From positions 1-35,702 of the forward strand of contig JAGWVB010000011.1 in NCBI GenBank assembly GCA_018971105.1: DNA of 35,702 nt, in the 5' to 3' direction. This DNA comes from Burkholderiales bacterium. Its GTDB lineage: Bacteria; Pseudomonadota; Gammaproteobacteria; Burkholderiales; Burkholderiaceae_C. Positions 7,875 through 32,472 of this stretch are shown here, piece by piece; position 1 is the first letter of the stretch; each line of letters starts with the position of its first letter. The position numbers and the translations under genes are program-made. The notes under the pieces are model-generated. The model saw only the letters and a program-made list of their open reading frames with translations, searched no databases and was not told the origin of the DNA.

Positions 7875-9089
7875 ATGGCGGGGCGCATCCGCACGCTGCT
7901 GTTCTCGTCGCTCTACCCCAGCGCGGAACGGCCCCTGCATGGCGTCTTCGTCGAAGCGCGGCTGCGCGAGTTGCTCAAGTGCGGCCGCGTCGAGACGCGC
8001 GTCGTCGCGCCGGTGCCCTGGTTCCCTTCGACATCCGAACGCTGGGGCGAATACGCGCGCCATGCGCGGACGCCGCGGCGCGAGCACATCAACGGCGTCG
8101 AGGTCCTGCACCCGCGCTATGCGCTGCCGCCGCGCGTGGGCATGACGATCGCGCCGCTGTCGATGGCGCTGGCGTCGCTGCCGACGCTGCGGCGCTTGAT
8201 CCGATCGGGGTTCGACTTCGACCTCATCGACGCTCATTACTATTATCCGGACGGCGTCGCCGCGACGCTGCTCGGCGCGCTGCTGGGCAAGCCGGTGACG
8301 GTGACGGCGCGCGGCAGCGACATCAACCTGCTGCCCGAATTCCTCGGTCCGCGGCTGTGGCTGCGCTGGGCCGGGCGCCGGGCGCGGGCTTCGATCGGGG
8401 TCTCGGCCGCGCTCGTCGACCGCATGCGCGCGCTCGGGCTCGACCCGGCGCGCCTGCACGTGATGCGCAACGGTGTCGACCTCGAACGTTTTCGGCCCCA
8501 TGACCGGGCGGCGGCGCGGCGCGAACTCGGCATCGGCGGCGCGCCTGTGCTGCTTACGGTCGGCAACCTGCATGAATACAAAGGCCAGCGCATCGCCGTC
8601 GACGCGCTGGCATGGCTGCGGCGCGACCATCCCGAGGCGCGGCTGCTGATCGTGGGAGCCGGCCCCGACGAGGCGGCCCTGCGCGCGCGCGTCGACGCTG
8701 CCGGCCTCGCCAACGCGGTGCGCTTCGTCGGCACCGTCCCCAATGCCGAGCTTGCGCGCTGGTACAGCGCCGCCGACCTGCTCGTGCTGGCCTCGAGCCG
8801 CGAGGGCTGGCCCAATGTGCTGCTTGAATCGATGGCCTGCGGCACGCCCGTCGTTGCGAGTGCAGTCGGCGGTGTGCCCGAAATCGTCGCGGCGCCCGAG
8901 GCCGGCATCGTCGTCGATCAGCGCGAGGCCGCCGAATTCGGCGCCGCGATCAAACATCTGCTCGAAGCCCCGCCGGCCCGTGCCGCCGTGCGCGCCTATG
9001 CCGAGCGCCATGGCTGGGAAGTGACGAGCCGCGCACAACTGGCCTTGTTCGATACGCTGGCCGCGGGAGATCTTCGATGCGCGACATAG
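7875..9089 (+). CDS. GT4-family glycosyltransferase
   Basis: A 404-residue GT-B enzyme. Residues 1-180 form the acceptor domain (opening RTLLFSSLYPSAERPLHG, with TARGSDINLLPEF at about residues 142-154). The donor domain follows, with MRNGVDLERF, LLTVGNLHEYKGQ and the E-x7-E region REGWPNVLLESMACGTPVVAS. The overall pattern is that of teichuronic/colanic-type GT4 enzymes with no further specificity visible. The ATG at 7875 is two bases past the preceding stop. A GTG at 7869 overlaps that stop as GTGA and would add two residues; the sequence does not decide between them. The 3' end overlaps the ligase gene by 13 bases. Confidence 0.85.
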   Translation: MAGRIRTLLFSSLYPSAERPLHGVFVEARLRELLKCGRVETRVVAPVPWFPSTSERWGEYARHARTPRREHINGVEVLHPRYALPPRVGMTIAPLSMALASLPTLRRLIRSGFDFDLIDAHYYYPDGVAATLLGALLGKPVTVTARGSDINLLPEFLGPRLWLRWAGRRARASIGVSAALVDRMRALGLDPARLHVMRNGVDLERFRPHDRAAARRELGIGGAPVLLTVGNLHEYKGQRIAVDALAWLRRDHPEARLLIVGAGPDEAALRARVDAAGLANAVRFVGTVPNAELARWYSAADLLVLASSREGWPNVLLESMACGTPVVASAVGGVPEIVAAPEAGIVVDQREAAEFGAAIKHLLEAPPARAAVRAYAERHGWEVTSRAQLALFDTLAAGDLRCAT

Positions 9090-10399
9090 TCCTCTCGGCC
9101 ATCATCGGTTGGCTGCTGGTGATGACGCTCCGCCAGCCCGTCTACGGTGCCTATCTATGGGCCTGGCTGTCGATCATGAATCCGCACCGGCTGACCTATG
9201 GATTCGCCTATTCGTTGCCTTGGGCCCAGATGACTGCGCTCGCGACCCTGGTCGCGATTGTTTTCTCGAAGAAACGCCATCCCCTGCAATTCAACGGCGG
9301 CATCGGGTTGCTGATTTCGCTCTGGCTCTGGATGACGCTGACATCGGTGCTGTCGATCAATCCGCCTGATTTGGTGTGGGAGCGCTGGATCTTCGTCAGC
9401 AAGGTCTATTTCATGCTCCTGGTCACGATTGCAATCGTGGGCGGTCGAAAGGAACTCGATACGCTCATCTGGGTCGTCGTCGGCTCGATCGGTTTCTATG
9501 CACTCAAGGGCGGACTCTTCACCATAGCCACAGGCGGCTCGTACCGGGTATGGGGCCCTGCCGGCAGCATGCTCGAGGACAACAATGCGCTGGCGGTGGC
9601 GACGCTGATGATGCTGCCGCTGCTCTATTACCTGCGCCATACCGCGACCAAGGTCTGGCTGCGACATGGATTGCTTGCGGCGATGGTGCTGTTCGGCGCT
9701 TCGGCGCTGGGATCCCAGTCGCGCGGCGCACTGCTTGCTCTGCTGGCGATGGCGTTCGTGCTGGGCCTCAAGAGCAAGGCGCCAGTGCGCTTCAGCGTTG
9801 TCATCACCCTGGCTCTGGCCTTGGGCATCAATTTCATGCCCGACAGTTGGACCCAGCGCATGGATACCATCGGTCACTACTCTGACGATGCCTCGGCAAT
9901 GGAGCGGATTTACACCTGGAACACGCTATGGAACGTGGCCAAGGACAGGCCGCTCATCGGTGCTGGTTTCCACGCTGACAATGTCGAGGTCTTCAGGCGC
10001 TACGCACCCGACGAACCGAGATTCACCCGCTTCATCGGTACGGCCTGGGTCGCCCACAGCATTTATTTCGAGGCACTTGGCGAGCAGGGATTCGTCGGCC
10101 TGGGCCTGTTCCTGGGCATGTGGTTCTGGGTCTGGCGCGCCTGCGCGCGTATGGCCAAGCAGGCCCGCAAAGTGCCCGAGTTGGCGGATTGGATGCCATT
10201 GTTGATGAGCATGTGCCAAGTTTCGATGATTGCCTATCTCGTCGGCGGCGCCTTCCTGGCGCTGATGAATCTGGATCTGCCGTTGTACCTGTTGGCCTTC
10301 GTCACGATTTGCGACCGCGAGATCCGGCGCTATCAGCAGAAGGCGAAGCCGCTGCTTCAACCCGGAAAGCTGGCTCAACCCGGAAAGGTGGCGCCGTGA
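9077..10399 (+). CDS. O-antigen ligase/polymerase-like membrane protein, exosortase A-associated (probable O-glycosylation ligase)
   Basis: A 440-residue polytopic inner-membrane protein with about ten hydrophobic segments. A periplasmic loop holds 'RMDTIGHYSDDASAMERIYTW' and 'WVAHSIYFEALGEQGFVGL', the H-x-x-Y/E-x-G-x-x-G pattern of WaaL/Wzy-type ligases and polymerases. The N terminus (MRDIVLSAI, then MNPHRLTYGFA) matches the exosortase-associated putative O-glycosylation ligase family. It should move lipid-linked glycan onto an acceptor or polymerise it on the periplasmic side. The gene overlaps its upstream neighbour by 13 bases. The last residues contain a small duplication, QPGKLAQPGKVA (see the repeat). 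A second protein of similar type starts near the window end. Confidence 0.85.
   Translation: MRDIVLSAIIGWLLVMTLRQPVYGAYLWAWLSIMNPHRLTYGFAYSLPWAQMTALATLVAIVFSKKRHPLQFNGGIGLLISLWLWMTLTSVLSINPPDLVWERWIFVSKVYFMLLVTIAIVGGRKELDTLIWVVVGSIGFYALKGGLFTIATGGSYRVWGPAGSMLEDNNALAVATLMMLPLLYYLRHTATKVWLRHGLLAAMVLFGASALGSQSRGALLALLAMAFVLGLKSKAPVRFSVVITLALALGINFMPDSWTQRMDTIGHYSDDASAMERIYTWNTLWNVAKDRPLIGAGFHADNVEVFRRYAPDEPRFTRFIGTAWVAHSIYFEALGEQGFVGLGLFLGMWFWVWRACARMAKQARKVPELADWMPLLMSMCQVSMIAYLVGGAFLALMNLDLPLYLLAFVTICDREIRRYQQKAKPLLQPGKLAQPGKVAP
10358..10393 (+). repeat. 18-base tandem duplication at the 3' end of the ligase gene
   Basis: The 12-base core caacccggaaag occurs at 10358-10369 and again at 10376-10387, a period of 18 bases, so six codons are duplicated (QPGKLA repeated). 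The second copy supplies GGAAAGG at 10382-10388, seven bases before the GTG start of the deacetylase, so the duplication also copies that gene's ribosome binding site. Confidence 0.7.
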
Positions 10400-11412
10400 G
10401 ATCTGCGGGATCGTTGGTAGGCGCGGCGAGCCGCATCGGTCTGCATGGTGTCGACGTCCTGTCGGGGCCCCGGCTTTCCATCCTGATCTTCCATCGCATT
10501 CTTCAGGCTCCCGATCCGCTGTTTCCGCTCGAATTGGACGTGACCCGGTTCGATAGACTGATGGGAGTTGTCGCCGCCGGCTTCAATGTGCTTGCGCTTG
10601 CCGATGCGGTGCGTCGGATCGAGAACAACACGCTCCCGGGGCGGGCCCTGTGCATCACCTTCGACGACGGCTATGCCGACAACCATGACCTGGCATTGCC
10701 TGTGCTGCTGCGCCACGGTCTCACCGCCTGCTTCTTCATTGCGACCGGTTTTCTCGACGGCGGCCGCATGTTCAACGACACCGTGATCGAGGCCGTGCGG
10801 CGCTCTCCGCTGGATCAAGTCGACCTGACCGAAATGGGTCTGGACCGGGCCGCGCTGACGACGCCGGCACAGCGCTCGGCGGCTATCGGCCGGCTGCTTC
10901 CGTCCATCAAGTACCTGCGCCCGGAACAGCGGCCGCAGATGTTGGAGCGTCTGGTTCGGCTCTTGCGATCAGCACCGCTCCCGGACGACCTGATGATGAC
11001 TGCGGCCCAGGTCGGCGCGATGCATCGGGCTGGAATGGAGATCGGCGCGCATACCGTTAACCATCCGATCCTGGCGCTGCTCGACGTGGAAGAGGCGGAG
11101 CGCGAAATGGCCGCCAGTCGGGATGAACTCGAGCAGATCATCGACGCACCGGTCACGCTGTTTGCATACCCCAACGGCCAGCCCGACCGCGACTATGACG
11201 CGCGTCACGCCTTGCTAGCCCGGCGCCTGGGCTACGCCGCGGCCGTCACGACCGCTCCGGGGGTCGCGGGTCCTGGAGCCGACCGATATCAACTCCCGCG
11301 TTACACGCCCTGGAACCCCTCGCCCTGGCTATGGGCGACCAAGATCGCTGCCTCGCGCACAGGGCGGCAATTCGCTACCGCAGCCGCGTCATCGCAAACC
11401 GAGCCCAATTGA
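10396..11412 (+). CDS. Polysaccharide deacetylase (NodB-type, carbohydrate esterase 4 fold)
   Basis: A 338-residue deacetylase-family protein. The metal-binding signature is visible as TFDDGYADN (Asp90/Asp91) and GAHTVNHP (His219 and His223). A third motif FAYPNG precedes the C-terminal barrel strand. Such enzymes remove N- or O-acetyl groups from glycans. A short N-terminal hydrophobic patch (SILIFHRIL) is part of the fold and not a clear signal peptide, so location is uncertain. The GTG start overlaps the ligase stop as GTGA, with GGAAAGG seven bases upstream. The region between the two motif pairs is longer than in a minimal NodB domain. Family is clear; the substrate is inferred to be the EPS of this locus. 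Confidence 0.85.
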   Translation: MRSAGSLVGAASRIGLHGVDVLSGPRLSILIFHRILQAPDPLFPLELDVTRFDRLMGVVAAGFNVLALADAVRRIENNTLPGRALCITFDDGYADNHDLALPVLLRHGLTACFFIATGFLDGGRMFNDTVIEAVRRSPLDQVDLTEMGLDRAALTTPAQRSAAIGRLLPSIKYLRPEQRPQMLERLVRLLRSAPLPDDLMMTAAQVGAMHRAGMEIGAHTVNHPILALLDVEEAEREMAASRDELEQIIDAPVTLFAYPNGQPDRDYDARHALLARRLGYAAAVTTAPGVAGPGADRYQLPRYTPWNPSPWLWATKIAASRTGRQFATAAASSQTEPN

Positions 11413-11509: not shown

Positions 11510-13252
11510 ATGAGTCTGCTCATCGCCCTTGTCGCCAACGGCCCTGCGGCGGGCCTGTCACCCACGATCGAGGCCGCGGCCCTGGCGAATGCTGCCAGCC
11601 GAGGCTTCATTCATCCTACGCGCCTGGAATGGCCGGGTGGGCATGCGCTGTGGTTTGCCACACCTGCCAGCCCGCGCAGCAGCGGCGGATGCCTCGTCGA
11701 AGGTCGGCGCTTTGCGGCCTATACCGGAACCGTGCACTGGAAGGGGCTTACCGGCGAGGCCTTGCTACGCCGACTGCTGCGCGAATTCAGCCGCCCGCAG
11801 GACATGCCTTTGCGAGATTTTTCGGGCGGCTTCGCGATGCTGTTCAGCCAAGGCGATGAAGTCTGGCTGTTCAGCGATGCGGTAGGTCTCCAGCAGTTCT
11901 ATGCGACCTGTGCTGGTTCGGTCATCAGCAACTCGCTGTACCTCTGCCGCTCGCTGCTGCGTCGCCCGCAACTGAACCGGCTCCGGGCGCAGGAATACGT
12001 GCTGTTGGGTAGCAATCACGCCACCGAGACGCCGCTGCAGGAAATTCGCGCTCATGACGCCAGCCAGATGGTGGACTTGCGCAGCGGGGCCAGGAGCACG
12101 CTACACGCAGCAGCCGACTGGCGCGTGAATCGGTCTTTTGCGACCACCGCTGAAGCAGTGGAGACCCTGTCGTCGCTGATCGATACGGATTTCGAAGGCA
12201 TGCTTCAGGCCTTTGGCCCGCAGATCGGCATGGCACTTTCGGGCGGATTCGACTCGCGCCTGTTGCTGGCGGCTCTGCAGCGCCACGGCATCGCGCCCGA
12301 TCTCTATGTCTATGGTGCACCCGACGACGACGATGTGCGTATCGCTGCGGCCAAGGCTTCCGAACTGGGGATGCCAATCGCCTGCATCGACAAACGCCAG
12401 ATCAATAGCGCCCGGCCACCCATCGACCGCCCGCTTATCGCGGGCAATCTGGCCTTTTTCGATGGACTGCCGGTCGATGGGGTCTTCGATCGCGGTGCCG
12501 ATCAGATTACGCGGCAATTGCAGATGACCGGCGGAAGGTTGAATCTCAACGGCGGCGGTGGCGAAATCCTGCGCAACTTCTTCTACCTTCCCGATCGCGC
12601 CTACAGTGCGACCGAGCTCGTGGGTGCCTTCTACTCGAACTGGATGCCGCGAGCGGTGCCAGATTCCGACGAACGCCGAGAACTTCATGAAGCGACTGCC
12701 GACGGGATCCTTGGTGAACTCGGTTTCGAATCTGGAACATTGCGGACGCGGGCCCGCAAGCTGCCGCGCGTCGATGTCGAACTGGTGTACACGCTGTTCC
12801 GGCTGCGCTGGTGGATGGCCCGCAACAACACCATCGCCACTCTCCACGGCGCGTTCATGACGCCACTCGCGCATCCCCGGTTGATCGAGTTGGCGGCCCA
12901 AGTCCCATTGGCCTGGAAGACCGATGGCGATCTCGAAGCCGCGGTCATCACGCGTCTCGCACCAGCCGTCGCGCGCGGACCCAGCAACTACGGTTTCGAT
13001 TTCAGCCGGGGGCCCGGGGCAGCTCACCGGCGCTACATGAACGCAACGCTGGTCCGTCCGATCATGATTCGACGTGCCTCGGCCCGCTTGCGTCGGCTGT
13101 TGGGACGCAACCCGAGCATTCCGTCGCCTGCCGAATGGCAACGGGCCTTCCCCTTGCCCGCGGTGGATTGGATCGACGTTCGCTACCTCACCGACAGCGG
13201 CCAATGGAACCGGCTGCTGACGTTGTGTGCACTGCTCGATGATGGACTTTGA
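11510..13252 (+). CDS. Asparagine synthase-like protein without the N-terminal Cys2
   Basis: A 580-residue AsnB-related protein, the last gene of the left + strand run. The N-terminal domain keeps the glutaminase-like strand order (DFSGGFAMLFSQGDEVWLFSDAVG) but starts MSLLIA, so the catalytic Cys is absent and glutamine hydrolysis is unlikely. The synthetase domain keeps the ATP-pyrophosphatase loop as LSGGFDSRLL (Ser244 to Arg250). The canonical GDGGDE segment is replaced by LNGGGGEILRNFF. Such proteins could use free ammonia, take ammonia from a partner, or catalyse another adenylation-dependent ligation. The ATG has GAGAGGA eight bases upstream. It follows the deacetylase by 97 bases in which no clear promoter was seen, and runs convergently into cysNC. 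Confidence 0.75.
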   Translation: MSLLIALVANGPAAGLSPTIEAAALANAASRGFIHPTRLEWPGGHALWFATPASPRSSGGCLVEGRRFAAYTGTVHWKGLTGEALLRRLLREFSRPQDMPLRDFSGGFAMLFSQGDEVWLFSDAVGLQQFYATCAGSVISNSLYLCRSLLRRPQLNRLRAQEYVLLGSNHATETPLQEIRAHDASQMVDLRSGARSTLHAAADWRVNRSFATTAEAVETLSSLIDTDFEGMLQAFGPQIGMALSGGFDSRLLLAALQRHGIAPDLYVYGAPDDDDVRIAAAKASELGMPIACIDKRQINSARPPIDRPLIAGNLAFFDGLPVDGVFDRGADQITRQLQMTGGRLNLNGGGGEILRNFFYLPDRAYSATELVGAFYSNWMPRAVPDSDERRELHEATADGILGELGFESGTLRTRARKLPRVDVELVYTLFRLRWWMARNNTIATLHGAFMTPLAHPRLIELAAQVPLAWKTDGDLEAAVITRLAPAVARGPSNYGFDFSRGPGAAHRRYMNATLVRPIMIRRASARLRRLLGRNPSIPSPAEWQRAFPLPAVDWIDVRYLTDSGQWNRLLTLCALLDDGL

Positions 13253-13322
13253 GGGGCAGATTTACCGGCGCCAACCCAATTCTGACCCGCCAGCGATCCG
13301 CCTACGCTCTGATTCAACAGCC

Positions 13323-15236
13323 TCAACCGTCACCGAGCACCCTCGCCACCACCAGCGCCGCCGCCTCCTCGGGCGTCAGCGTCGTCGTGTCGAGCCGGAT
13401 CTCGGGCACCGGCGGCGGCTCGTAGCGGCTGTCGACGCCGGTGAAGTTCTTCAGCTGGCCGGCGCGGGCCTTCCTGTACAGGCCCTTCACGTCGCGCTGC
13501 TCGGCCAGCGCCAGCGGCGTGTCGACATGGACCTCGATGAACTCGCCCTCGGCCACCATGCGCCGCACCATCTCGCGCTCGGAGCGGAACGGGCTGATGA
13601 AGGCCGTGAGCACGATCAGCCCGGCGTCGGTCATCAGCTTGGCGACCTCGCCCACGCGGCGGATGTTCTCCACGCGGTCGACGTCGGTGAAGCCGAGGTC
13701 CTTGTTCAGGCCATGCCGCACGTTGTCGCCGTCGAGCAAGAAGCAATGCTTGCCCAGCGCGTACAGCTGCTTGGCGACGAGGTTGGCGATGGTCGACTTG
13801 CCGGCGCCGCTCAGGCCGGTGAACCAGACGATGCGCGCACGCTGGTGCTTCTGCGCCGCGAGCTGCTCGCGCCCGATCTCCAGCGCCTGCCAATGGATGT
13901 TGTGGCTGCGCCGGAGCGCGAAATGCAGCATCCCGGCGCCCACGGTCGCATGGCTCATGCGGTCGATGACGATGAAGCCGCCCAGGTCGTGGTTCTCGGC
14001 GTAGGGCGCGAAAGGCACGGCGCGGTCCAGCGCCAGGTTGCAGACCCCGATCGCGTTCAGCCCCAGCGTCTTGCCGGCCACATGCTCGAGCGTGTTGACG
14101 TTGACCTGGTACTTCTCGGCCGTGACGGTGGCGGCGACGGTGGTGGCGCCGATCTTCAGCAGGTAGGGCCGGCCGGGCAGCATCGGCTCGTCGGCCATCC
14201 ACACCAGCGTGGCCTCGAACTGGTCGGCGACCTCGAGCGGCACCGCGGCCGCCGTGATGACGTCGCCGCGCGAGCAGTCGACCTCGTCGGCCAGGCACAG
14301 CGTCACCGACAGGCCGGCGACGGCGCGCGGCAGGTCGCCGTCCAGCGTCACGATGCGGCTCACGGTCGACGTGCGGCCCGAAGGCAGCACGCGCACGGCG
14401 TCGCCGACGGCGACGCAGCCGCTGTTGATGAAACCCGAGAAACCGCGGAAATCGAGGTCGGGCCGGTTCACCCATTGCACCGCCATGCGCAGCGGCGCGC
14501 GCGCCAGCGCCTCCTCGTCCAGCGCCACCGTCTCCAGATGCTCGATCAGCGAGGGGCCGCGGTACCAGGGCATGTTCGGCGAGGCCGCGGTGATGTTGTC
14601 GCCCTTGAAGCCCGAGATCGGCATGGCGACGAAATCGGCGATGCCCAGGCCGGTGGCGAAGGCGCGGTAGTCGGCGACGATCTCGTCGTAGCGGGCCTGG
14701 CTGTAGCCGACCAGGTCCATCTTGTTGACGGCGAGCACGACGTTGCGGATGCCGATCAGGTGCACCAGGTAGCTGTGGCGCCGCGTCTGCGTCAGCACGC
14801 CCTTGCGCGCGTCGATCAGGATCACCGCGAGGTCGGCCGTCGACGCGCCGGTGACCATGTTGCGCGTGTACTGCTCGTGGCCGGGCGTGTCGGCGACGAT
14901 GAACTTGCGCTTGTCGGTGGCGAAGAATCGGTAGGCGACATCGATCGTGATGCCCTGTTCGCGCTCGGCCGCCAGGCCGTCCACGAGCAGCGCGAAATCG
15001 ATCTCCTGGCCCTGCGTGCCGACGCGCTTGCTGTCGGCGACGAGCGCGGCGAGCTGGTCCTCGAAGATCATCTTCGAGTCGTAGAGCAGGCGCCCGATCA
15101 GGGTCGACTTGCCGTCGTCGACCGAGCCGCAGGTGATGAAGCGCAGCAGCGACTTGTGCTGGTGGCGGTCGAGGTAGGCGCCGATGTCCTCGGCGATGAG
15201 CGCGTCGGCGCGGTAGGAGCTCGCGTCCGGTTGCAT
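13323..15236 (-). CDS. cysNC: Bifunctional sulfate adenylyltransferase subunit 1/adenylylsulfate kinase
   Basis: A 637-residue CysN-CysC fusion (NodQ type). Residues 1-460 are the EF-Tu-like GTPase: P-loop GSVDDGKST (37-45), DTPGHEQY, and NKMD for guanine recognition. From about residue 465 comes APS kinase, with P-loop [19 protein letters not shown] and FISPFRSER. With CysD it turns sulfate and ATP into APS using GTP energy, and the kinase part phosphorylates APS to PAPS. The ATG overlaps the cysD stop as TGATG. It is the last gene of the long - strand run. Because the kinase makes PAPS and the same run encodes a sulfotransferase, polysaccharide sulfation is the likely purpose; general assimilation is the alternative. 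Confidence 0.95.
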
Positions 15237-16132
15237 CAGAAATAGCCCTCCTGCTTCTTCTTTTCCATCGAGGCCGACTGGTCCTGGTCGATCGCGCGGC
15301 CCTGGCGTTCGGATGTCGTCGTCAGCAGCATCTCCTGGATCACCTCGGGCAGGGTCGCGGCGCGGCTCTCCACGGCGCCGGTGAGCGGGTAGCAGCCCAG
15401 CGTGCGGAAGCGGATCGACTTCAGCACCGGTGCCTCGCCCGGGCGCAGCGGGAAGCGCTCGTCGTCGACCATCAGCGTCAGCCCGTCGCGCACGACGGTG
15501 GGGCGCATGGCGGCGAAGTACAGCGGCACGATGGGGATGTTCTCGAGGTGGATGTACTGCCAGATATCGAGCTCGGTCCAGTTCGAGATCGGGAACACGC
15601 GCACGCTCTCGCCCTTGGCCTTGCGCGCGTTGTAGAGCTTCCAGAGCTCGGGGCGCTGGTTCTTCGGGTCCCAGCGGTGGCTGGTGGAGCGGAAGGAGAA
15701 GATGCGCTCCTTGGCGCGCGACTTCTCCTCGTCGCGGCGACCGCCGCCGAAGGCGGCATCGAAGCCGTGCTGGTCCAGCGCCTGCTTCAGCCCCTCGGTC
15801 TTCCACAGGTCGGTGTGCAGCGAGCCGTGGTCGAAGGGGTTGATGCCGCGCGCCAGGGCCTCGGGGTTGCGATGCACGAGCAGTTCCATCCCGCTCTCGC
15901 GCGCGACGCGGTCGCGCATCTCGTACATGGCCTTGAACTTCCAGGTCGTGTCGACATGCAGCATCGGGAACGGCGGCCGGCTCGGATAGAAGGCCTTGCG
16001 CGCCAGTTGCAGCATCACGGCCGAGTCCTTGCCGATCGAGTACAGCAGGACCGGCTTCTCGCACTCGGCGGCGACCTCGCGGAAGATGTGGATGCTCTCG
16101 GCTTCGAGACGTTGCAGGTGGGTCAGCGCCAT
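15236..16132 (-). CDS. cysD: Sulfate adenylyltransferase subunit 2
   Basis: A 298-residue catalytic ATP sulfurylase subunit that partners CysN. The N terminus [20 protein letters not shown] is the canonical CysD opening and sets the start at 16132; the longer open frame upstream is Pro/Arg-rich and overlaps the acyltransferase. The ATP-pyrophosphatase loop is [10 protein letters not shown]. Further family blocks are [25 protein letters not shown] and the C-terminal [12 protein letters not shown] with a basic tail KKKQEGYF. The gap of 91 bases to the upstream acyltransferase shows no convincing promoter (TACGAT-like -10 without a -35). There is no strong Shine-Dalgarno before this ATG, so it may depend on read-through from the operon. 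Confidence 0.95.
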
Positions 16133-16223
16133 GGGTGCGGTTCGGGTGAGCGAGGGTCGACCGGGGATCGTAGCGTCCGGGCGCGATAGCATGCGCTGCG
16201 GCGCGCACCGGAGATCGGGAATT

Positions 16224-17309
16224 TCAGGCAGTTCCGGACGAACTGGCTCGCGCAAACAAGCGGCGCTGCAGGAAGGTCCGCGACGGTTGCTCGATCCAAC
16301 GATAGGTGAGCCACGCAAATGGCAGCACCGCCAGCGACGCTACGAACGCAAACAGGAGCGCTCCGGCCATGTTCAGCGGCGCGGGGTGCAGCGTGACGAG
16401 GATCAGCGTCGCGATCGGGCGGAACGCGTTGTGAATCAGATAGAGCGAATACGAGATCTGTCCGAGCAGGTGCAGCGCCGGGTGGCTGAGCAGGGTCGCG
16501 ACGCGGCCGCGATTGCACGAGACGGCACCGACGACGAGCGGAAACGAGAGCGCGATGAAGAGGTCGATGCGCAGCAGCAGCAGCAGCACGCTCGCCGCCA
16601 GCAAGGCCGCGGTGACCCGGTCACCGCCGAGCCGTTGCGCCCACGACTGGTCGCCGGTCCAGCGATACACGAGCATGCCTAGCGTGAATTCGGAAAAGCA
16701 GCGCATCGCCCCGCCCACCGGGTCGTCCGCAGCCAGTCCCAGTCTCGGCGACGCCAGTGCGATCTTCAGCAGCAGCGCCAATGCCGCCAACAGCGCCAGG
16801 CCGACGACGACGCGCCGTCGGCTGAAGACGGCATAGATGAGCAACGGGAAGGTGACGTAGGCCATCAATTCGGCGCTGACCGACCAGGATGGGGCGTTCA
16901 TGTTGTGGCCCAGTCCTAGCCCTTGGAGCATCAACAGGTTGGTGACAATGTCGATGGGGTAGCGCAGTTCACCGAAGAACATATTCGTGCCGGTCGCGCC
17001 GATGCTGAGCCAGCCCGCCAGGAGCAAGGCGAGCGTGATGAATGCGTTCAGAGGCAGCAGTCGGATAGCCCGTCGCTGAAGGAACGGGCCATAAGCGCTC
17101 CAACCGCCCTGCTTGAACTTGCTCAGGTACGTGTAGCACATGATGTAGCCGCTGAGCACGAAGAAAAAATCCACCGCCAGATAGCCGTGAGGGACGAGCG
17201 AGGGTATGACCGAGGGGCAATGATCCTGGGCCGTCCTGGAGAAATGCTGCATCACGACCGCCAGCGCCGCGATGCCCCGAAGCGAGGTCAAGGCCTTGAT
17301 TTCTTTCAT
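16224..17309 (-). CDS. Acyltransferase family 3 membrane protein (OafA-like)
   Basis: A 361-residue polytopic inner-membrane acyltransferase. The opening [22 protein letters not shown] carries the Arg and His of the R-x10-H motif in the first helix, and [12 protein letters not shown] follows in the second. About ten hydrophobic segments are visible. These proteins pass acyl groups, usually acetyl, from cytoplasmic donors to sugars on the periplasmic side. The start at 17309 is chosen because family homology begins there and because it overlaps the upstream stop as ATGA; the open frame extends further but is not membrane-like. A run of five CAG units at about 16572-16586 encodes consecutive Leu residues. 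Likely O-acylation of the EPS is inferred from context. Confidence 0.88.
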
Positions 17310-18361
17310 GTGCGCGGCACCTTGGGACGGATTTTGTTGCGTATCTGGTTTACTCGGCGATCGATCAACGCGATCGATGCGTAGGACCAGGCGAAGACGA
17401 TCAGCAGCGCGAGCAAGAAGACCTGCGCGCCAGGCTTGTTCATGCCGAATGTCGGTTTGGGAAAGAGAAAGTACGACGCCATCAGACCAGCTTGCCAATG
17501 GCTGAGGTAAATCGGGTAGCTGAAATCCCCGAACCACTTATCGACCGCCTTGCTGCAGAATTCATGACCGCGGTGGAAGAGCACGACAACGGCCACCGCC
17601 GAAAGCACTAGATTCAGGTACTTGCCGGTGTCCACGACGAAGGGCGAGGAATTGACCTTGTGTCGCATCGAATAGACGGCAAATAATGCCGCGTTCGACG
17701 CCAGCGCGCCGAGTACCGCGGCGGGTGAGATCGCTGTGCCAACGCCGAGCCGGCGCTGAACATCACCCTTGACGAAATAGAGCAGGGCGCCGAGCGCGAA
17801 CGGCAACGAGGCGGCGGGGATGTTGGCGTAACGATAGGATTCGCCTTGCCCGTCGATATAGCTCCAGGCTAGATAGACCAGGCTCGCCCCGAGCCAGCCG
17901 AAAGTCCGATTGCGCGTGCGCGACAGGCCCAGGCCGATGCAGATGTAGAAGAAAATCTCGACCGTTAGCGCCCATGTCGGGGGTGATAGACGCGGGTCGA
18001 CCGTATAGGGGAACCGCGCCGGGAAGATCATCGTCAGATTGAACACAATCGAAGAGATCCGGTGCGGGATCTGCATTGTGTCCTTATATGCATAGGCGTA
18101 GGCGCTCGAGGCGATCAGAATGACCGCGATCGAGAACAGCGCCGCCGCCCAATACATCGGGTAAAGTCGGAAGAATCGGTTCGCTGCGTATCGCTTGATT
18201 CCCTGAAGGTCGTAGCCGTAAGTCTCGTGCATGATCGTCGTCATCAGGAAGCCGCTGAGGACGAAAAACGAGAACACCGCGTAGGTGCCGATGACCGGAA
18301 TCCCGAGCAGATGGAAGGCCATCACGCTGATGGCGAGGATCGTTCTGTAGAAGCCGAACAT
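17306..18361 (-). CDS. Acyltransferase family 3 membrane protein
   Basis: A 351-residue second acyltransferase-3 protein directly upstream in the same operon. The opening 'FGFYRTILAISVMAFHLLG' has the Arg and His in helix one; FSFFVLSGFLMTT follows in helix two and NRFFRLYPMYW lies after it. About ten hydrophobic segments are seen. It is clearly diverged from its neighbour, so this is not a recent duplication and it may use a different position or acyl group. The stop overlaps the next start as ATGA. GC content is lower than in the flanking cysD or exosortase-associated genes (one hand-counted line near 17461 is about 52%), hinting at a separate origin. Twenty-four bases separate it from the GT2 gene upstream. 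Confidence 0.87.
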   Translation of the reverse strand: MFGFYRTILAISVMAFHLLGIPVIGTYAVFSFFVLSGFLMTTIMHETYGYDLQGIKRYAANRFFRLYPMYWAAALFSIAVILIASSAYAYAYKDTMQIPHRISSIVFNLTMIFPARFPYTVDPRLSPPTWALTVEIFFYICIGLGLSRTRNRTFGWLGASLVYLAWSYIDGQGESYRYANIPAASLPFALGALLYFVKGDVQRRLGVGTAISPAAVLGALASNAALFAVYSMRHKVNSSPFVVDTGKYLNLVLSAVAVVVLFHRGHEFCSKAVDKWFGDFSYPIYLSHWQAGLMASYFLFPKPTFGMNKPGAQVFLLALLIVFAWSYASIALIDRRVNQIRNKIRPKVPRT

Positions 18362-18385
18362 GCGAGCCCTTATGTGTTCGAAGAC

Positions 18386-19369
18386 CTAACGCAGGGTCAG
18401 CGCGGCCGCGAGGCACCGCCAATGCTCGCCCTGGCTCAGGTCGTAACGTGTGGCCGCCAGTGCCGCAGCGATGGCGTCGCGATGCCTGCCCTGCTTGCGG
18501 AAGTGATAGGCCTGGCGCAGGTAGCTCTGACCCAACCGGCGGTCGATACTGGCGCGATACGGCCTGTATTCGGGAGCCTGGCGCAGCCAGCCGAAGAATC
18601 GGGTTGCGAAGAAGGCGGCGGCTGGGTAATCCTGATTTGTCAGGCTGCCGGGTCGATAGCGGTAGTACATCAGCGGCGTTGGTACGTAAACCATGCGGCC
18701 TGCGATGCGCGCCAGCTGTATCCAAAGATAAATGTCCTCTCCGACCTCCAGTTCCTCGTTGAATCCACCGGCACGCTCAATCAGGCCGCGTCGCGCTGTA
18801 AAAGTTCCGGAGTGACCGATCGGCTCGTGCTCTATAAAAGCACGAACAGGAGCTTCGATTAAACGAGGTTCGCCGGTGCCGTCATCAGGCTGCACCAAAC
18901 TACGCCACGGCGCCCGAAGGGACTGGCGATAATCCGACCACTCATGGCGTTCCAACGTCCGATTAGCGGCATTTTCGTTGTAGTAGTCCGAACTGATCAG
19001 TTGCACATCCGGGTGGATTGCTGCGGCGGACATCTTGCTGGCTAGATTTCCGGGTTCCCAAAGATCATCGCCGTCCAGAAAGGCAATCCATTCGCCACGA
19101 GCGTGGGTGAGGCCGAAATTTCGAGCGCCCGCGGCGCCTTGCCGTCTCTCGTTCAACAGGAGCTTTATTCTCGGATCTCGCAACGCCCGCTCGCGAACCA
19201 CTTCTCGTGTGCCATCGCTCGATCGGTCGTCAATCACCAATACTTCGAAATCGGAGAATTCACGCTGAATGCTGATGGAATCCAGCGTTTGTCCGAGCAA
19301 GTCCTGAAGGTTATGGACAGGAACGATTACGCTTAATAGGGGGCGAGTGTCTTGCACAGTTTCTCGCAT
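18386..19369 (-). CDS. GT2-family glycosyltransferase
   Basis: A 327-residue GT-A glycosyltransferase. The opening LSVIVPVHNLQDLLGQTLDSI and EVLVIDDRSSDGTREV form the nucleotide-binding half, and AFLDGDDLWEPG holds the metal-binding D-x-D-type site. 'GGFNEELEVGEDIYLWIQLA' carries the catalytic acidic region (E-D). The C-terminal 70 residues are helical and basic. The ATG at 19369 overlaps the preceding stop as TGATG and is preferred over a TTG one codon earlier. No membrane helix is evident, so it is likely peripheral at the cytoplasmic face, adding one residue of the repeat unit. Confidence 0.87.
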   Translation of the reverse strand: MRETVQDTRPLLSVIVPVHNLQDLLGQTLDSISIQREFSDFEVLVIDDRSSDGTREVVRERALRDPRIKLLLNERRQGAAGARNFGLTHARGEWIAFLDGDDLWEPGNLASKMSAAAIHPDVQLISSDYYNENAANRTLERHEWSDYRQSLRAPWRSLVQPDDGTGEPRLIEAPVRAFIEHEPIGHSGTFTARRGLIERAGGFNEELEVGEDIYLWIQLARIAGRMVYVPTPLMYYRYRPGSLTNQDYPAAAFFATRFFGWLRQAPEYRPYRASIDRRLGQSYLRQAYHFRKQGRHRDAIAAALAATRYDLSQGEHWRCLAAALTLR

Positions 19370-20340
19370 CAAGAAATGATATTATGATATCGCCGGCCGG
19401 GCATAAGAAATCGGCGCGCCAGCAACGGCATTCGCCTCCGATTATCGAAAGACCCCCGCGTACCTATTAGCCCATCCCAGAGCCCGTCCAAAGTGGCCTC
19501 CACAACTTCTTGAGGCTTGTTTCTCGTTAGCAATTCTCCACGTAGGCGATTGAAATCCCACCACAAAGTTCGCCAACGTTCGGTGAAAGATCTGATGTAG
19601 CGCTTTCGCATGACAATCTTGTTTCTCGTCATGTAGTAGTAATAATGCGGCTTCCTGATTCCTTGATCGATTGGATTGTCATGCAGAATCTCGGCATCGA
19701 AAACCATGACATTTCGGAAGCCCGCCGCGATAGATCGCATTGAATAGTCCATATCCTCAAAATAGGCGAAGAGTCCTTCGTCAAGATAACCAATTAACTC
19801 GACAAGGCGCCGATGGACAAGGAGCGCCGTTCCCCAAAGCAGCATAAGCTCGGGCTGCTCACTCTGGATGCGCCGAGCTTGCGCCAGATCTACCGGGTCC
19901 ATGTCGTGGCTTTCCCTGTCGAGCATGGATCCACAAAATTGAATTCGATCCGGGTGACTGGCGTAGCGGATCAGTGGGCTGGCAAGACCCATGTTGGGCC
20001 TGGATTCCGCGAAGTGAACAAGTTTCGTCAGGCAGTCGGGTGCCACGGACGTATCGCTGTTCACCAGCCAGATATATTGAGCGCCGCCGACCAGCCCTGC
20101 CTTGATCCCTACGTTGCACCCTCCTGAAAATCCGAGATTCTCCGCATTGCAAACTAATTCAATGCCCTTTGCGCGGGAGAGAATTTCAACAGAACCGTCC
20201 CTTGATCCGTTGTCGATCACAATGATCCTAAAATTCCCGTAATCCGATCTCTGCAGCGATGCCACGCACTTGAGCGTTTCTTCTGCGCTATTCCAGTTCA
20301 GGACAACAACGTAGACGAGTGGTTGCGTTTCGTTAGGCAT
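19369..20340 (-). CDS. GT2-family glycosyltransferase (rhamnosyltransferase-like)
   Basis: A 323-residue GT-A enzyme of the WcaA/RfbF-like type. The opening VYVVVLNWNSAEETLKC, RIIVIDNGSRDGS, ENLGFSGGCNVGI and WLVNSDTSVAPD are the hallmarks, with D-T-S in the position of the D-x-D motif. Further on, LDEGLFAYFEDMDYSMR is the catalytic acidic block common in rhamnosyltransferase-like GT2 proteins. The sugar cannot be assigned from sequence. GC is low: one hand-counted line in the gene (19621-19680) is about 42%, far below the 70% of the flanking exosortase-associated genes. It is separated by 12 bases from the methyltransferase upstream and ends at the TGATG shared with the next gene. Confidence 0.85.
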   Translation of the reverse strand: MPNETQPLVYVVVLNWNSAEETLKCVASLQRSDYGNFRIIVIDNGSRDGSVEILSRAKGIELVCNAENLGFSGGCNVGIKAGLVGGAQYIWLVNSDTSVAPDCLTKLVHFAESRPNMGLASPLIRYASHPDRIQFCGSMLDRESHDMDPVDLAQARRIQSEQPELMLLWGTALLVHRRLVELIGYLDEGLFAYFEDMDYSMRSIAAGFRNVMVFDAEILHDNPIDQGIRKPHYYYYMTRNKIVMRKRYIRSFTERWRTLWWDFNRLRGELLTRNKPQEVVEATLDGLWDGLIGTRGSFDNRRRMPLLARRFLMPGRRYHNIIS

Positions 20341-20352
20341 TGAAGCGACATC

Positions 20353-20991
20353 CTAAATGCATGCCTCAGATTTTCTAAGAAGACTCACTAGGTTGAACTC
20401 ACGCCGGGCCTGTCCAATAACATTGAACGACCCTCGAAAGCCATACATCGCAGCGTGGCGGTTCACGTCATCGAAGTACATCGGAAAAGTTTCGTGCGAA
20501 ATGATATTGACATGGGTAGGATCGCGAAAGGCTTCTGAGAACGGAAACGTCGGCGTGCTCGAAAGCAGGACGCCATTCGGTTTCAAGACTCTCCAAATTT
20601 CGTTCATCAACTCCACGAAGGGAAATCGTCGTTCAGGGGCGTAGATCACGCGGGGCACATGCTCCAGGAAATCGTATGCGGTCAAGAATTCAAAACTGTT
20701 GTCGGGGAATGGAATGGGCTCTACGGTCAAATCCGCGTAACGAATATTTCCTCTCCCGTCGCCCCGAATATCAAGACCGTAAACGTGATCCGCCCGAAAT
20801 GGATTCCTGGGATTGCCTCCGCAACCGATGTCAAGCGTGCTGGACGATTTAAGTCCCGCAACGTCTGCCCGATACTGGGCTACGTAGGCGTCTATTTCGA
20901 GGATAATCGGAACATCTTTAATCCCCCGGTTCAAGTCGGCAATCAGCGAAATCAACTTGCGCGCTTGAAGAACTTTATCGGCGATTCTCAT
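20353..20991 (-). CDS. Class I SAM-dependent methyltransferase
   Basis: A 212-residue methyltransferase. Motif I is LDIGCGGNPRN (about residues 53-63), followed by an acidic end of strand two in YGLDIRGDG, and PFPDNSFEFLTAYDFLEHV as motifs II/III. 'EIWRVLKPNGVLLSSTPTFPF' is the typical type-11 post-motif. The C-terminal part, rich in aromatic and His residues, may bind substrate. In an EPS operon it probably O-methylates a sugar, or modifies a nucleotide-sugar, though a small-molecule role cannot be excluded. The gene is AT-rich (about 42% GC at 20341-20400). The ATG is preceded by a weak AAAGA. An 82-base AT-rich gap precedes it and may hold a promoter. Confidence 0.8.
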   Translation of the reverse strand: MRIADKVLQARKLISLIADLNRGIKDVPIILEIDAYVAQYRADVAGLKSSSTLDIGCGGNPRNPFRADHVYGLDIRGDGRGNIRYADLTVEPIPFPDNSFEFLTAYDFLEHVPRVIYAPERRFPFVELMNEIWRVLKPNGVLLSSTPTFPFSEAFRDPTHVNIISHETFPMYFDDVNRHAAMYGFRGSFNVIGQARREFNLVSLLRKSEACI

Positions 20992-21011
20992 GAGTCGTCT
21001 TTCAATTTTCA

Positions 21012-21038
21012 GTATTAATCACCAAGTTTGCGATTCAA
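21012..21038 (-). promoter_or_regulatory. Possible sigma70-type promoter ahead of the methyltransferase
   Basis: Read on the - strand, TTGAAT (21038-21033) is followed after 15 bases by TAATAC (21017-21012), about 20 bases before the methyltransferase ATG. The 15-base spacer is shorter than ideal. The gap is AT-rich like its neighbours, so chance matches are likely. It would let the glycosyltransferase half of the operon be transcribed separately. Confidence 0.25.
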
Positions 21039-21073
21039 TTCGCGACAACTGGATATGGAGATATTGCATAAGA

Positions 21074-22744
21074 TCATTCTTTGATGCGCCAGTCCGGGGT
21101 ATGCGCGCGCAGCCAATACTCCAGCATGATCAAAATCCAGGCCATCGTGCCGTAATGTTGCGGGTGCGAAGGCAGCAGGCCGTCAAAGAGTTCGCGCCCG
21201 AACTCGGGGCGCACGATGCCGCGCGAGACGAGGGAGGAGACGGCATCGGTTGAAAGGCGCTTGAGGCCTTCGTGCTGGACCATCCAGACACCAAAAGGCA
21301 ATCCGAATCCCTGTTTTTTCTTAGTGATTACGCCGTCGGGCAGAAAACCGCGCAAGGCCTCCTTGAAGAACCAACGCAAGGCGTCGCCTCGCAGCTTGTA
21401 TTCGGCAGGCAGCCGCATCGAGAAGTTGACTAATGCGTCGTCGAGCAGCGGGAATCCGACCGAAACTCCCGCCATCGTGGCCGTTCCGACGACCTTGGGC
21501 AGATCGCATTCGGCCAGCGTGTAACGCCAGTCATAGGCCAGATGGCGATCGATCTCGTTGTTGCAGTCGGCCTCGGCCCAGACCACGCGCTGCTGCCGAT
21601 CGGTGTCGGCGATGTCGATCGAGGCGAGGAAGGCGGACGTCAGTACGGTCGATTCTCCGATCCGGCGCACATGGTTGTAATCCTGTCCTCGGACGGGCAT
21701 CGGCAGGTTAGCTAGCCGGATGTAATTCGACCCCTTACGCAGGCCGGGGAGGCGCGAGACCAGGCCGTGGCCGAAAAAGGGTTCGAGGAAGCCGCGGCGG
21801 ATGAATGATGGAATTCGCGCGTAGGGCTCGAACAAGCGTTGCGTGGCATAGCGTGAATTCCCGCCGAAGAGTTCGTCGCCGCCATCGCCGGCGAGCAGCC
21901 GCGTGATGCCGTCTGCGCGAGCACGTTCGGCGCAATGGAAGGCCGGCAATGCCGACGAATTGCCGAAGGGCTGGTCGTACCCGGCGGCGACCTTGGGGAT
22001 GTCTCGAACCAGATCCTCAGGCGTGAAATAGATCTCGCGGTGCTCGCAACCGAAGTGCTTGGCTGCCATCCGCGCGTACGCCATCTCGTCGTAACCCTTG
22101 GCGTCGAACCCGATCGAGTAGGCAACGGCGGGGCGGCCTGCGGCGAGGCCGATCATGCCGGCGACGGTCGAACTGTCTGTGCCGCCACTGAGATAACAAG
22201 CAGGCCTGCTGCCGTCAAGTTGCCGAGCGACTGCATTCTTTAGCAGTACACGAAACTCGTCGCGAAGTCTTTCGAAGGAGGGGTCGCGCAGCGGATCGAA
22301 CTTAGGGGTCCAATAGCGATGCTGGGTCAGCCTTCCGTCTTTGAACAGGGCCCAATGTGCAGGCGGCAGGCGCTGTACTCCTGCGAAAACAGTACGCGGC
22401 GATGGCACGACGTGGAAGTAGAGATAATCGAACACAGCCTGGTTGTCGAGCGTCTTGCTGCCGAGTCCATCTGCGCGTTCGCTGCAAATCAAGCGACCCG
22501 CGTCGATGCGCCAACACAACGTGCGAATGGCGTAGCGGTCGACGGCAAGAAAGACACTACCATCGTCCAAGGTGATGGCAACTGCAAAATCGCCTTCGAC
22601 GCGAACTGCGGCCTCGGCCGGTCCAACTCTCGCTATCAGCGAGCGCCATGCATGGACTGTGTCACCCGCGGCAGCTTCTTCCGGAAAGCGCGGGTGTCCT
22701 AGAGACAACGCGATAGGTGGCATAAGCGCCGCTTTGTTTTCCAT
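21074..22744 (-). CDS. Asparagine synthase-like amidotransferase without Cys2
   Basis: A 556-residue AsnB-like protein. The N terminus is MENKAALMPPIALSLGH, so the glutaminase nucleophile Cys2 is missing, although the domain is otherwise still visible (VEGDFAVAITLDDGSVFLAVDRYA, then FAGVQRLPPAHW). The synthetase domain looks intact: YLSGGTDSSTV, LLAGDGGDELFGGNSRYA, a 'GFPLLDDALVNF' block and KKKQGFGLPFG. It should adenylate a carboxylate and amidate it with ammonia, or join it to another nucleophile. It differs from the canonical Cys2 enzyme at 3342 and from the more degenerate copy at 11510. It lies between flippase and methyltransferase, 15 bases after the flippase stop. Its GC is higher than that of its two neighbours. 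Confidence 0.85.
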   Translation of the reverse strand: MENKAALMPPIALSLGHPRFPEEAAAGDTVHAWRSLIARVGPAEAAVRVEGDFAVAITLDDGSVFLAVDRYAIRTLCWRIDAGRLICSERADGLGSKTLDNQAVFDYLYFHVVPSPRTVFAGVQRLPPAHWALFKDGRLTQHRYWTPKFDPLRDPSFERLRDEFRVLLKNAVARQLDGSRPACYLSGGTDSSTVAGMIGLAAGRPAVAYSIGFDAKGYDEMAYARMAAKHFGCEHREIYFTPEDLVRDIPKVAAGYDQPFGNSSALPAFHCAERARADGITRLLAGDGGDELFGGNSRYATQRLFEPYARIPSFIRRGFLEPFFGHGLVSRLPGLRKGSNYIRLANLPMPVRGQDYNHVRRIGESTVLTSAFLASIDIADTDRQQRVVWAEADCNNEIDRHLAYDWRYTLAECDLPKVVGTATMAGVSVGFPLLDDALVNFSMRLPAEYKLRGDALRWFFKEALRGFLPDGVITKKKQGFGLPFGVWMVQHEGLKRLSTDAVSSLVSRGIVRPEFGRELFDGLLPSHPQHYGTMAWILIMLEYWLRAHTPDWRIKE

Positions 22745-22759
22745 TGTATTTGCTTTCTA

Positions 22760-24226
22760 CTACGCGCCAGGAAAATTCTGCCCGACGAAGCGGGCCCGCA
22801 ACGGTGCTGACGCATTGATCAATTCTCGCCATAGCGGGTGGGCTATCCAACGAACAACCAGTAGCCATACGATTGCCGTCATGGGAGCATAGATTATGAG
22901 GCGAATCAAATAATTACTTGCGTCAGCAGGCTTGGTGAACTCGAAGATAAGCAGCGGCGCCAGTGCAACCAGCGCGACGAATAGTCCAGCGCTAACAGCG
23001 GTCCATAGATGCTTGAGCGTAAATCGAGCAGCAATCCACATATGCCATTGCGACAGTGCGGCAGTCCCAATAGTAGACGCCAGTGTGCCCCAACACGCAC
23101 CTCTTAAACCGAATGGAAAAGCAAATAGCAGTCCTAAGACCTGCAAGATTTGCTGAAAAAACTGAAGCCGGGTTGCAACCTTGATATGGCCACCTGACAT
23201 CAATGCTTCCTTGGCCATCGTGTGGACGACTTCAATGATTCCCGCTGCGCACAGTATCCTGGCAAGCGGAACTGCCGCATCCCACTGTGAACCATATACG
23301 ATCCGAATTAGTGGGAATGCCGCAAGGCCAAGAAAGCCGATCACGGTAAAGGAGAGGCAATTCAGTAAATTAGAGCTGCGACAATAAGCGTCGCATATCG
23401 TGCCTTCGTCGCGTGCCGCACGAGCGAAGTACGGCATGCAGACAGGTCCGAAAGCCCTTGCGATTAACATTCTAAACATTTGCATAAGACCGCCTCCGCG
23501 ACTAAACATCGCGACGCCGGTGACGCCCAGTACCCTGCCTAGGATCATTTCAGGCGCACCGCGTCCAAGCTGACCGATCGCATACAAGCTGCTTGCGTAT
23601 GCGCCGAATCTCGCAACTTCCCCGGCGCCTTTTATCGAGGGCCAGCGTGGGATCGCGGGGGGGCGTAGGGCCATTGAAATTATCACCGTGACGGAGATGC
23701 CGGCCAAAGATGACCAGGCTAGGCTCAGTGCGCCCATTCCTTTAACGCCGAGCGTGATTGCTACAAGGAGGCCGGCTATATCCGATGCCACGCTACAATA
23801 GAATATCGGTTTGAAATTTAGCTCGCGTCGAAACCAGGCCATGTTGATGGCCCCGAATGGTATTAGCAGGAAATTCAGTGTCTGAACCCGCATGACCATT
23901 GTTATTTCAGAAGACTTGTAGAATGTGCCCACTGGTGCTGAGGCAATCAGCATCGCAAAGGCCATCGTCCAAGAGGTAATTATGTTGGTTGCGAATGCTG
24001 CGCGTATTTTTGAATTTGTAAGATCCTTGGCTTGAATCAAGTATTCGCTGATCCCGAAATCACGGACCGTACTGGCGATGGCTGAAAATACGGCGGCGAT
24101 GCCAAATACTCCGATTTGAGCTGGTGTCAGTATTCTTGACAGTATGGCCGTCGATACTAGTTGCAAACCGATGCTTACATAGCTCTGCAAAGCCGAATAG
24201 GCTATCGATCGGCGCAGGCTAGACAT
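22760..24226 (-). CDS. wzx: Polysaccharide flippase (Wzx, PST/MATE-like family)
   Basis: A 488-residue polytopic membrane protein with about 12-14 hydrophobic segments. The opening 'RRSIAYSALQSYVSIGLQLV', then SRILTPAQIGVFGIAAVF, is the standard start of Wzx-type lipopolysaccharide/EPS exporters. A conserved-looking ILGRVLGVTGVAMFSRG block sits mid-protein and WDAAVPLARILCAAG begins the second half. It should flip the lipid-linked repeat unit across the inner membrane before polymerisation. Composition is AT-rich for this locus; the line 24001-24060 counts at about 42% GC. It is separated by 12 bases from the GT2 gene upstream and 15 from the AsnB-like gene downstream. Wzx proteins are usually matched to repeat structure, which fits an exchangeable cassette. 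Confidence 0.88.
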   Translation of the reverse strand: MSSLRRSIAYSALQSYVSIGLQLVSTAILSRILTPAQIGVFGIAAVFSAIASTVRDFGISEYLIQAKDLTNSKIRAAFATNIITSWTMAFAMLIASAPVGTFYKSSEITMVMRVQTLNFLLIPFGAINMAWFRRELNFKPIFYCSVASDIAGLLVAITLGVKGMGALSLAWSSLAGISVTVIISMALRPPAIPRWPSIKGAGEVARFGAYASSLYAIGQLGRGAPEMILGRVLGVTGVAMFSRGGGLMQMFRMLIARAFGPVCMPYFARAARDEGTICDAYCRSSNLLNCLSFTVIGFLGLAAFPLIRIVYGSQWDAAVPLARILCAAGIIEVVHTMAKEALMSGGHIKVATRLQFFQQILQVLGLLFAFPFGLRGACWGTLASTIGTAALSQWHMWIAARFTLKHLWTAVSAGLFVALVALAPLLIFEFTKPADASNYLIRLIIYAPMTAIVWLLVVRWIAHPLWRELINASAPLRARFVGQNFPGA

Positions 24227-24238
24227 TTTGTAGTCCTA

Positions 24239-25240: not shown

Positions 25241-25246
25241 CGCGTC

Positions 25247-27728: not shown

Positions 27729-27734
27729 GGGGCT

Positions 27735-29489: not shown

Positions 29490-29551
29490 CTCGCTGGGAT
29501 CTGGCGCTCGAGGATTCGGCCGCGGGCGACGGCCGAGCCGGGACGATCGGA

Positions 29552-30331: not shown

Positions 30332-30332
30332 G

Positions 30333-32464: not shown

Positions 32465-32472
32465 AGGAAACC

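Follow-up and report, generated by a model that had tools for sequence, protein, structure and literature searches.

The cysD-cysNC gene pair at positions 13323-16132 of a 35,702-nt stretch of DNA from a Burkholderiales bacterium (GenBank assembly GCA_018971105.1, contig JAGWVB010000011.1; our contig C75, positions 1-35702, referred to as a whole as the window) closes an exopolysaccharide (EPS) operon in an exosortase A (XrtA) cluster, and it is likely that this operon both makes and uses 3′-phosphoadenosine-5′-phosphosulfate (PAPS) for glycan sulfation. Because the cluster holds a sulfotransferase together with its own activated-sulfate enzymes, including the only adenosine-5′-phosphosulfate (APS) kinase match in the assembly (4.82 Mb, 499 contigs, 98% complete), the organism probably decorates its surface polysaccharide with sulfate. 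The original prediction of a sulfated EPS found support in the PAPS supply, the sulfotransferase, and the XrtA cluster, while we infer the enzyme activities, the acceptor, and the presence of sulfate on the polymer.

Sulfate-Activating Enzymes and the Single APS Kinase

CysNC (13323-15236, minus strand) was identified as a fusion of the ATP sulfurylase large subunit (a GTPase) with an APS kinase. It scored 1026.5 bits against NF004035 (cut-off 715), and its kinase part scored 241 bits against the APS kinase model TIGR00455 (cut-off 139); the protein aligns with 1zun_B, and also matches APS kinases such as 3uie, 4rfv, and 4bzp. CysD, the small subunit of ATP sulfurylase (15236-16132, minus strand), scored 531 bits against NF009214 (cut-off 413) and matched 1zun_A with an E-value of 2e-140. 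The two genes overlap by 1 base. Translation and alignment with solved homologues revealed that the nucleotide-binding and kinase motifs, including SIGKDS, are intact, the motifs presumably having the roles customarily assigned to them. CysD and CysNC are predicted to be PAPS-forming enzymes. An ATP sulfurylase with a fused APS kinase had been proposed to end the minus-strand run, and curated models scoring above their cut-offs confirmed this, with the outer limits of 13323 and 16132 exact.

A second cysDN/cysH set, which the original prediction had suggested looking for, was found on contig C80, where cysH-cysD-cysN is followed by a gene for uroporphyrinogen-III methyltransferase. This ruled out that the operon pair constitutes the only sulfate-assimilation genes of the genome, the outcome named in advance as contradicting the prediction. 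The C80 CysN has no kinase part; the fusion model is matched over its CysN portion alone. In the CysH of this set, the CC...CxxC cysteines typical of APS reductases are present, which we take to mark an enzyme that should have no need for PAPS; a few CysH proteins accept both APS and PAPS. Against a cut-off of 235, the C80 CysH scored 231 bits with the APS reductase model; with the PAPS reductase model it scored 144 bits (cut-off 254). Its assignment as a predicted APS reductase is strong but not absolute. A whole-genome search returned one APS kinase match only, the CysNC of the EPS operon. Since the C80 CysH is of the APS type, the C80 CysN is kinase-free, and the lone APS kinase lies in the EPS operon, the PAPS of the operon appears to be made for sulfation and not for cysteine, and the operon pair is probably not the ordinary sulfate pathway of the cell. 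These three features make the case for a dedicated PAPS supply stronger than had been claimed. In a survey of 120 genomes of the same family (28 candidates scored per genome), an APS kinase was matched at E ≤ 1e-15 in just 29, and none was matched in the other 91, so the APS kinase is an optional gene in this family.

The Operon Sulfotransferase

CysNC and CysD close a tight minus-strand run that also holds a 258-residue sulfotransferase (26952-27728, minus strand). The run had been proposed to contain a PAPS-type sulfotransferase at this position, an assignment now upheld by homologues, predicted fold, and invariant active-site residues. A search with the protein gathered 601 proteins at E ≤ 1e-3, the query included, which rules out a chance open reading frame (ORF). 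The window protein scored 23.2 bits against Sulfotransfer_3 (PF13469), below the cut-off of 27; all six homologues tested scored above it. The predicted structure matched PAPS sulfotransferases in all of the best 50 matches listed, indicating a sulfotransferase fold for the modelled protein. By Z, the nearest fold was that of tyrosylprotein sulfotransferase (TPST), and a profile search against the sequences of solved structures returned CurM at an E-value of 0.01, one unrelated match, and nothing else.

Passages of two papers (PMC6637879, PMC11625862) describe sulfotransferases as having a basic residue in the 5′ PAPS loop, a serine in the 3′ site, and a glutamate or histidine base between them. 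The window protein has R27 in the 5′ PAPS loop, S115 in the 3′ site, and E48 as the base. All three residues are conserved without exception, both in the window protein with its 119 listed homologues (120 of 120 sequences) and in the 37 sulfotransferase loci of a GTDB genome scan, in which R27 and E48 were partly preselected by the scan patterns. K82 and R107 were likewise invariant among the sequences compared. The PAPS loop itself is deviant, reading RANT, and together with the sub-cut-off Pfam score it means that routine annotation can miss this sulfotransferase.

The 37 loci were carried by Denitromonas and other Zoogloeaceae, by Rubrivivax metagenome-assembled genomes (MAGs), and by many Gammaproteobacteria; the nearest named relative, judged by the sulfotransferase, was a Burkholderiales MAG with 93% identity. 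Of the 37 loci, 18 contained one or more of five XrtA markers; among the 27 loci that reach at least 15 kb, the figure was 16. The distribution of the sulfotransferase is patchy, since it was found in only one of the 120 family genomes, the window's own.

The sulfotransferase might instead use locally made PAPS to modify something other than the polysaccharide, whether a small molecule, a lipid carrier, or a tyrosine of an exported (for example, PEP-CTERM) protein. This is unlikely, because Foldseek placed CurM first, with heparan sulfate 3-O-sulfotransferases ranked level with TPSTs, and the window neighbours of the gene are glycosyltransferases, a flippase, sugar dehydrogenases, and an O-ligase. 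In addition, 22 of the 37 other loci have, no more than 200 bp from the sulfotransferase, a GT2 glycosyltransferase gene for which the window gene at 24239-25240 is the best match; in the window itself, two hydrolase genes separate the pair. Sulfation of a glycan remains the preferred assignment.

Linkage of PAPS Genes Across Genomes

PAPS genes were located within 15 kb of the sulfotransferase, on the same contig, in 6 of the 37 loci (G003, G004, G005, G007, G016, and G031). The linked gene encodes CysNC in G003, G004, G005, and G007, and a stand-alone CysC in G031; in G016, the contig ends at the linked cysD gene, and CysNC is encoded on a different contig. G003, G004, and G005 repeat the arrangement of the window's genome: in each, the single APS kinase match is linked to the sulfotransferase, and another CysD is encoded next to an APS-type CysH at a separate site. 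In the cultured, non-pathogenic Denitromonas iodatirespirans, the sulfotransferase and cysDNC share a contig, one APS kinase is matched, and the predicted cysteine route has an APS-type CysH and a second CysD elsewhere in the genome; Denitromonas ohlonensis has a further, weaker APS kinase match. In G002, cysDNC has a permease on one side and the XrtA acyl-CoA ligase on the other, and the sulfotransferase is on a different contig. No APS kinase was found in 4 of the 37 genomes, in one of which, that of the nearest relative (L008), the contig stops before the expected cysDNC site. Among the loci surveyed, L035 (Alteromonas portus) and L036 (a MAG labelled Rhodospirillaceae, SAT126) have an identical gene layout at the same coordinates, which suggests that the L036 MAG is mislabelled or contaminated.

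A CysH was found in 24 of the 37 genomes, 14 of the APS type and 10 without the cysteines (PAPS type); G011, in the latter class, was counted from a match below the cut-off, and G013, in the former, has two further matches, one lacking the cysteines and interrupted by a stop, the other weak and left untyped. Strict linkage was observed in 5 of the 14 genomes with an APS-type CysH versus 0 of the 10 without the cysteines (one-sided p = 0.047). An APS kinase was present anywhere in the genome in 12 of the 14 APS-type genomes; among the other genomes sampled from the window's family, the figure was 28 of 119 (p = 8e-6). This comparison is a rough guide, as the two sets are taxonomically different and the family set is untyped for CysH. 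In a tree of 20 CysNC proteins, the five XrtA-linked rows did not group together and required five changes, of which the starred branches force at least three; this count is inflated, as L091 (Denitromonas halophila) was labelled unlinked from a contig break though it is a near copy of L010. The tree fits repeated recruitment, and the linkage data fit, but do not prove, selection of a dedicated supply where housekeeping PAPS is absent.

These indications have several limits. When the three named Zoogloeaceae and the similarly arranged MAG (G003, G004, G005, and G007) were counted once, the linkage fell to 2 of 11 versus 0 of 10 (p = 0.26). In the CysNC tree, 500 of 500 label shuffles were equally low, and the window row has no starred placement. 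CysQ disposes of the by-product adenosine 3′,5′-bisphosphate, and no CysQ above cut-off was found in the window's genome, the best match scoring 97 bits versus a cut-off of 229. In the same-genus genome G131 (locus L071), cysDNC adjoins CysQ and an amidotransferase, and no copy of the sulfotransferase is present. The lack of CysQ and the G131 case weigh against a simple account. Finally, the NCBIfam name that the C80 CysH obtained above cut-off is phosphoadenylyl-sulfate reductase (250 versus 154).

That last name would suit a reading in which the operon cysD-cysNC is a second, differently regulated copy of the sulfate-assimilation genes for cysteine, placed at the operon end by chance. So would L072 and L074, two genomes of the window's family in which cysDNC is followed by a sulfate-symporter-like permease and no XrtA gene of the window was matched in the same stretch. 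This reading is nevertheless very improbable. A CysH with the CC and CxxC cysteines should, we presume, not need PAPS, and the 91 family genomes in which no APS kinase was matched argue in the same direction. CysQ adjoins cysDNC in two loci, Denitromonas halophila (L091) and G131. Furthermore, motif or weak profile matches singled out eight ORFs close to APS kinase genes, spread over eight loci (one from G009, the other seven from the window's family), and every one scored above cut-off for Sulfotransfer_3; the pick, made among 35 stretches, was not exhaustive, and weaker motif matches in L071, L077, L081, L099, and L104 were left out. In L072, L074, L092, and L096, the gene after cysD-cysNC encodes a permease that matches CitMHS, TrkA_C, and a sodium:sulfate symporter; this arrangement is a recurring module that probably serves sulfate uptake and activation.

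It is still less probable that the operon PAPS mainly feeds a sulfotransferase with TPR repeats on contig C314 (L109:4827-6302, minus strand), leaving the operon enzyme minor or inactive: with 149 bits, the C314 protein matches Sulfotransfer_3 much better than the operon enzyme does, and its gene lies near those for a cytidylyltransferase and a short-chain dehydrogenase, but the operon enzyme keeps its catalytic residues and lies in the same tight run as cysDNC, and the two uses are compatible.

Organization of the Cluster and Proposed Pathway

From the ATP-grasp gene to CysNC, neighbouring genes on the minus strand are separated by -4 to 91 bp, with the widest gap just before CysD. Upstream of CysD, on the minus strand, lie genes for two acyltransferase 3 family membrane proteins (16224-17309, start ATG at 17309, putative O-acylation, PF01757 89 bits; 17306-18361, PF01757 67 bits), two GT2 glycosyltransferases (18386-19372, PF00535 112 bits; 19369-20340, 75 bits), an S-adenosylmethionine-dependent methyltransferase (20353-20991, PF08241 39 bits), an asparagine-synthase-like amidotransferase (21074-22744, PF00733 239 bits), a Wzx-like flippase (22760-24226, PF13440 172 bits), and the further GT2 glycosyltransferase (24239-25240, PF00535 81 bits). 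The exosortase A system-associated hydrolases 1 (25247-26119, TIGR03100 256 bits, cut-off 168) and 2 (26116-26952, TIGR03101 243 bits, cut-off 203) lie between this gene and the sulfotransferase, upstream of which is a fusion of ATP-grasp and low-molecular-weight phosphatase domains (27735-29675, minus strand; PF01451 80 bits, PF02786 50 bits). Its true start is probably below 29552, judging from the gene order in L008, and next to it is the gene for a TPR protein (29552-30385, minus strand; weak TPR matches below cut-off). A relative of the ATP-grasp/low-molecular-weight tyrosine phosphatase gene was present in 23 of the 37 sulfotransferase loci.

The plus strand carries genes for the exosortase-associated EpsI (42-689, TIGR02914 72 bits, cut-off 43), a TviB-like nucleotide-sugar dehydrogenase (716-1996; TIGR03026 382 bits, above cut-off; TviB model 472, below its 592), the XrtA system amidotransferase (3342-5294, TIGR03108 1044 bits, cut-off 817, matched from residue 353 of ORF 2286-5294), a second UDP-sugar dehydrogenase (5324-6640, PF03721 162 bits), a putative exosortase A-associated O-glycosylation ligase (9077-10399, TIGR03097 443 bits, cut-off 188), and a polysaccharide deacetylase with its true start within the ORF (10120-11412, PF01522 77 bits). 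Also on the plus strand are the exosortase A-associated acyl-CoA ligase (30614-32464, TIGR03098 766 bits, cut-off 592, matched from residue 91) and pyridoxal phosphate-dependent decarboxylase (32224-33714, TIGR03099 621 bits, cut-off 478, matched from residue 101). Six XrtA-associated models (TIGR03097, TIGR03098, TIGR03099, TIGR03100, TIGR03101, and TIGR03108) thus scored above cut-off in the window. Of the three asparagine-synthase-like proteins in the cluster (3342-5294, 11510-13252, and 21074-22744), the first alone passed the XrtA amidotransferase cut-off, the others having diverged. A scan of 13000-31000 for promoters and terminators yielded nothing usable: one promoter-like site was found where 2.9 were expected, and 15 terminator-like sites where 11.5 were expected (standard deviation 2.9).

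The XrtA gene itself lies at the very start of contig C328 (TIGR03109 347 bits, cut-off 208), which also carries genes for FemAB, a deacetylase, an ATPase, a tyrosine kinase, an export protein, and a PepA-family protein. C328 opens with XrtA and the window with EpsI, which makes it probable that these contigs are adjacent; their starts share no exact overlap of 20-119 bases at the contig ends. The PepA-family flocculation PEP-CTERM protein (L108:14771-15610, minus strand) scored 81.5 bits, just above the cut-off of 80, and its presence on the XrtA contig suggests that the organism is a floc-former.

In the proposed pathway, CysD and the CysN half of CysNC would convert sulfate and ATP to APS, which the CysC half would phosphorylate to PAPS. 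The sulfotransferase would then transfer the sulfuryl group to a sugar of the XrtA EPS repeat unit, or of another glycan made by the cluster, probably in the cytoplasm, ahead of export by the Wzx-like flippase. Cysteine would be made through the separate cysH-cysD-cysN set, whose APS-reductase-like CysH would not need PAPS. The two UDP-sugar dehydrogenases, the amidotransferases, the deacetylase, and the acyltransferases suggest a polymer that is rich in uronic acid, and partly amidated and acylated; with sulfate added, such a polymer would resemble a glycosaminoglycan (GAG).

Comparison with Known Systems

In Sinorhizobium, NodP-NodQ and NodH are reportedly arranged together for Nod factor sulfation, with a further sulfate-activation set elsewhere. 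The NodP/NodQ precedent invoked in the original prediction proved apt as a way of working: in both cases, ATP sulfurylase and a CysNC-type fusion accompany a carbohydrate sulfotransferase (with the acceptor predicted in the window), and another activation set, here that on C80, is found elsewhere. The systems differ in that NodPQ-NodH modifies a lipo-oligosaccharide, whereas the window is an XrtA EPS locus, and in the PAPS loop, reported as RXG for NodH and reading RANT here. NodH is listed as a PF13469 sulfotransferase in a passage of PMC11625862.

The synechan xss cluster of Synechocystis 6803 (PMC8205485) similarly has sulfotransferases within a Wzx/Wzy EPS cluster, but the terms PAPS, APS kinase, and exosortase do not appear in the main text of that paper. 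Sulfated polysaccharides are described as exclusively cyanobacterial in a passage of PMC8205485, and are attributed to six bacterial genera in one of PMC11625862. In Pontiella sulfatireligans (PMC7356697), a putative cluster for a sulfated GAG has a PF13469-type sulfotransferase amid glycosyltransferases, and a sulfated GAG-like polymer was measured in that organism; it belongs to another phylum, and the text does not mention exosortase, PEP-CTERM, PAPS, or adenylylsulfate kinase. According to passages of PMC6637879, the TPST-like RaxST of Xanthomonas, like the window enzyme as proposed, requires PAPS supply genes (RaxP-RaxQ), but its acceptor is a peptide tyrosine, and its PAPS enzymes are counted as core genes outside the rax cluster. 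The floc-forming XrtA EPS clusters of Zoogloea and Aquincola (PMC9850573) are of the same kind by description, and in the window's genome, too, a PepA-family protein is encoded close to XrtA; in the passages of that paper, however, "sulf" occurs only in the phenol-sulfuric acid assay.

Implications

Sulfated GAG-like polymers have been measured in granular sludge, where BLASTp with reference sulfotransferases gave few matches (in passages of PMC10483923), and which community members produce them is called unclear in a passage of PMC7356697. In searches of the open-licence PMC literature on exosortase/PEP-CTERM and sulfation, none of the titles and abstracts listed describes exosortase-linked EPS sulfation. 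Because the organism has one APS kinase and an APS-reductase-like cysteine route, a single gene deletion should abolish PAPS-dependent sulfation without cysteine starvation, an unusually clean test that would also apply to Denitromonas iodatirespirans. It is possible, though we hold this broader proposal only tentatively, that the XrtA/PEP-CTERM EPS of floc- and granule-forming Betaproteobacteria is GAG-like (in the sense of containing uronic acid, hexosamine, amide, and sulfate), that cysDNC was recruited repeatedly in lineages that make cysteine through APS reductase, and that these sulfotransferases are one missing source of the sludge GAGs. The locus offers a concrete gene set for such putative polymers in the relevant Betaproteobacteria.
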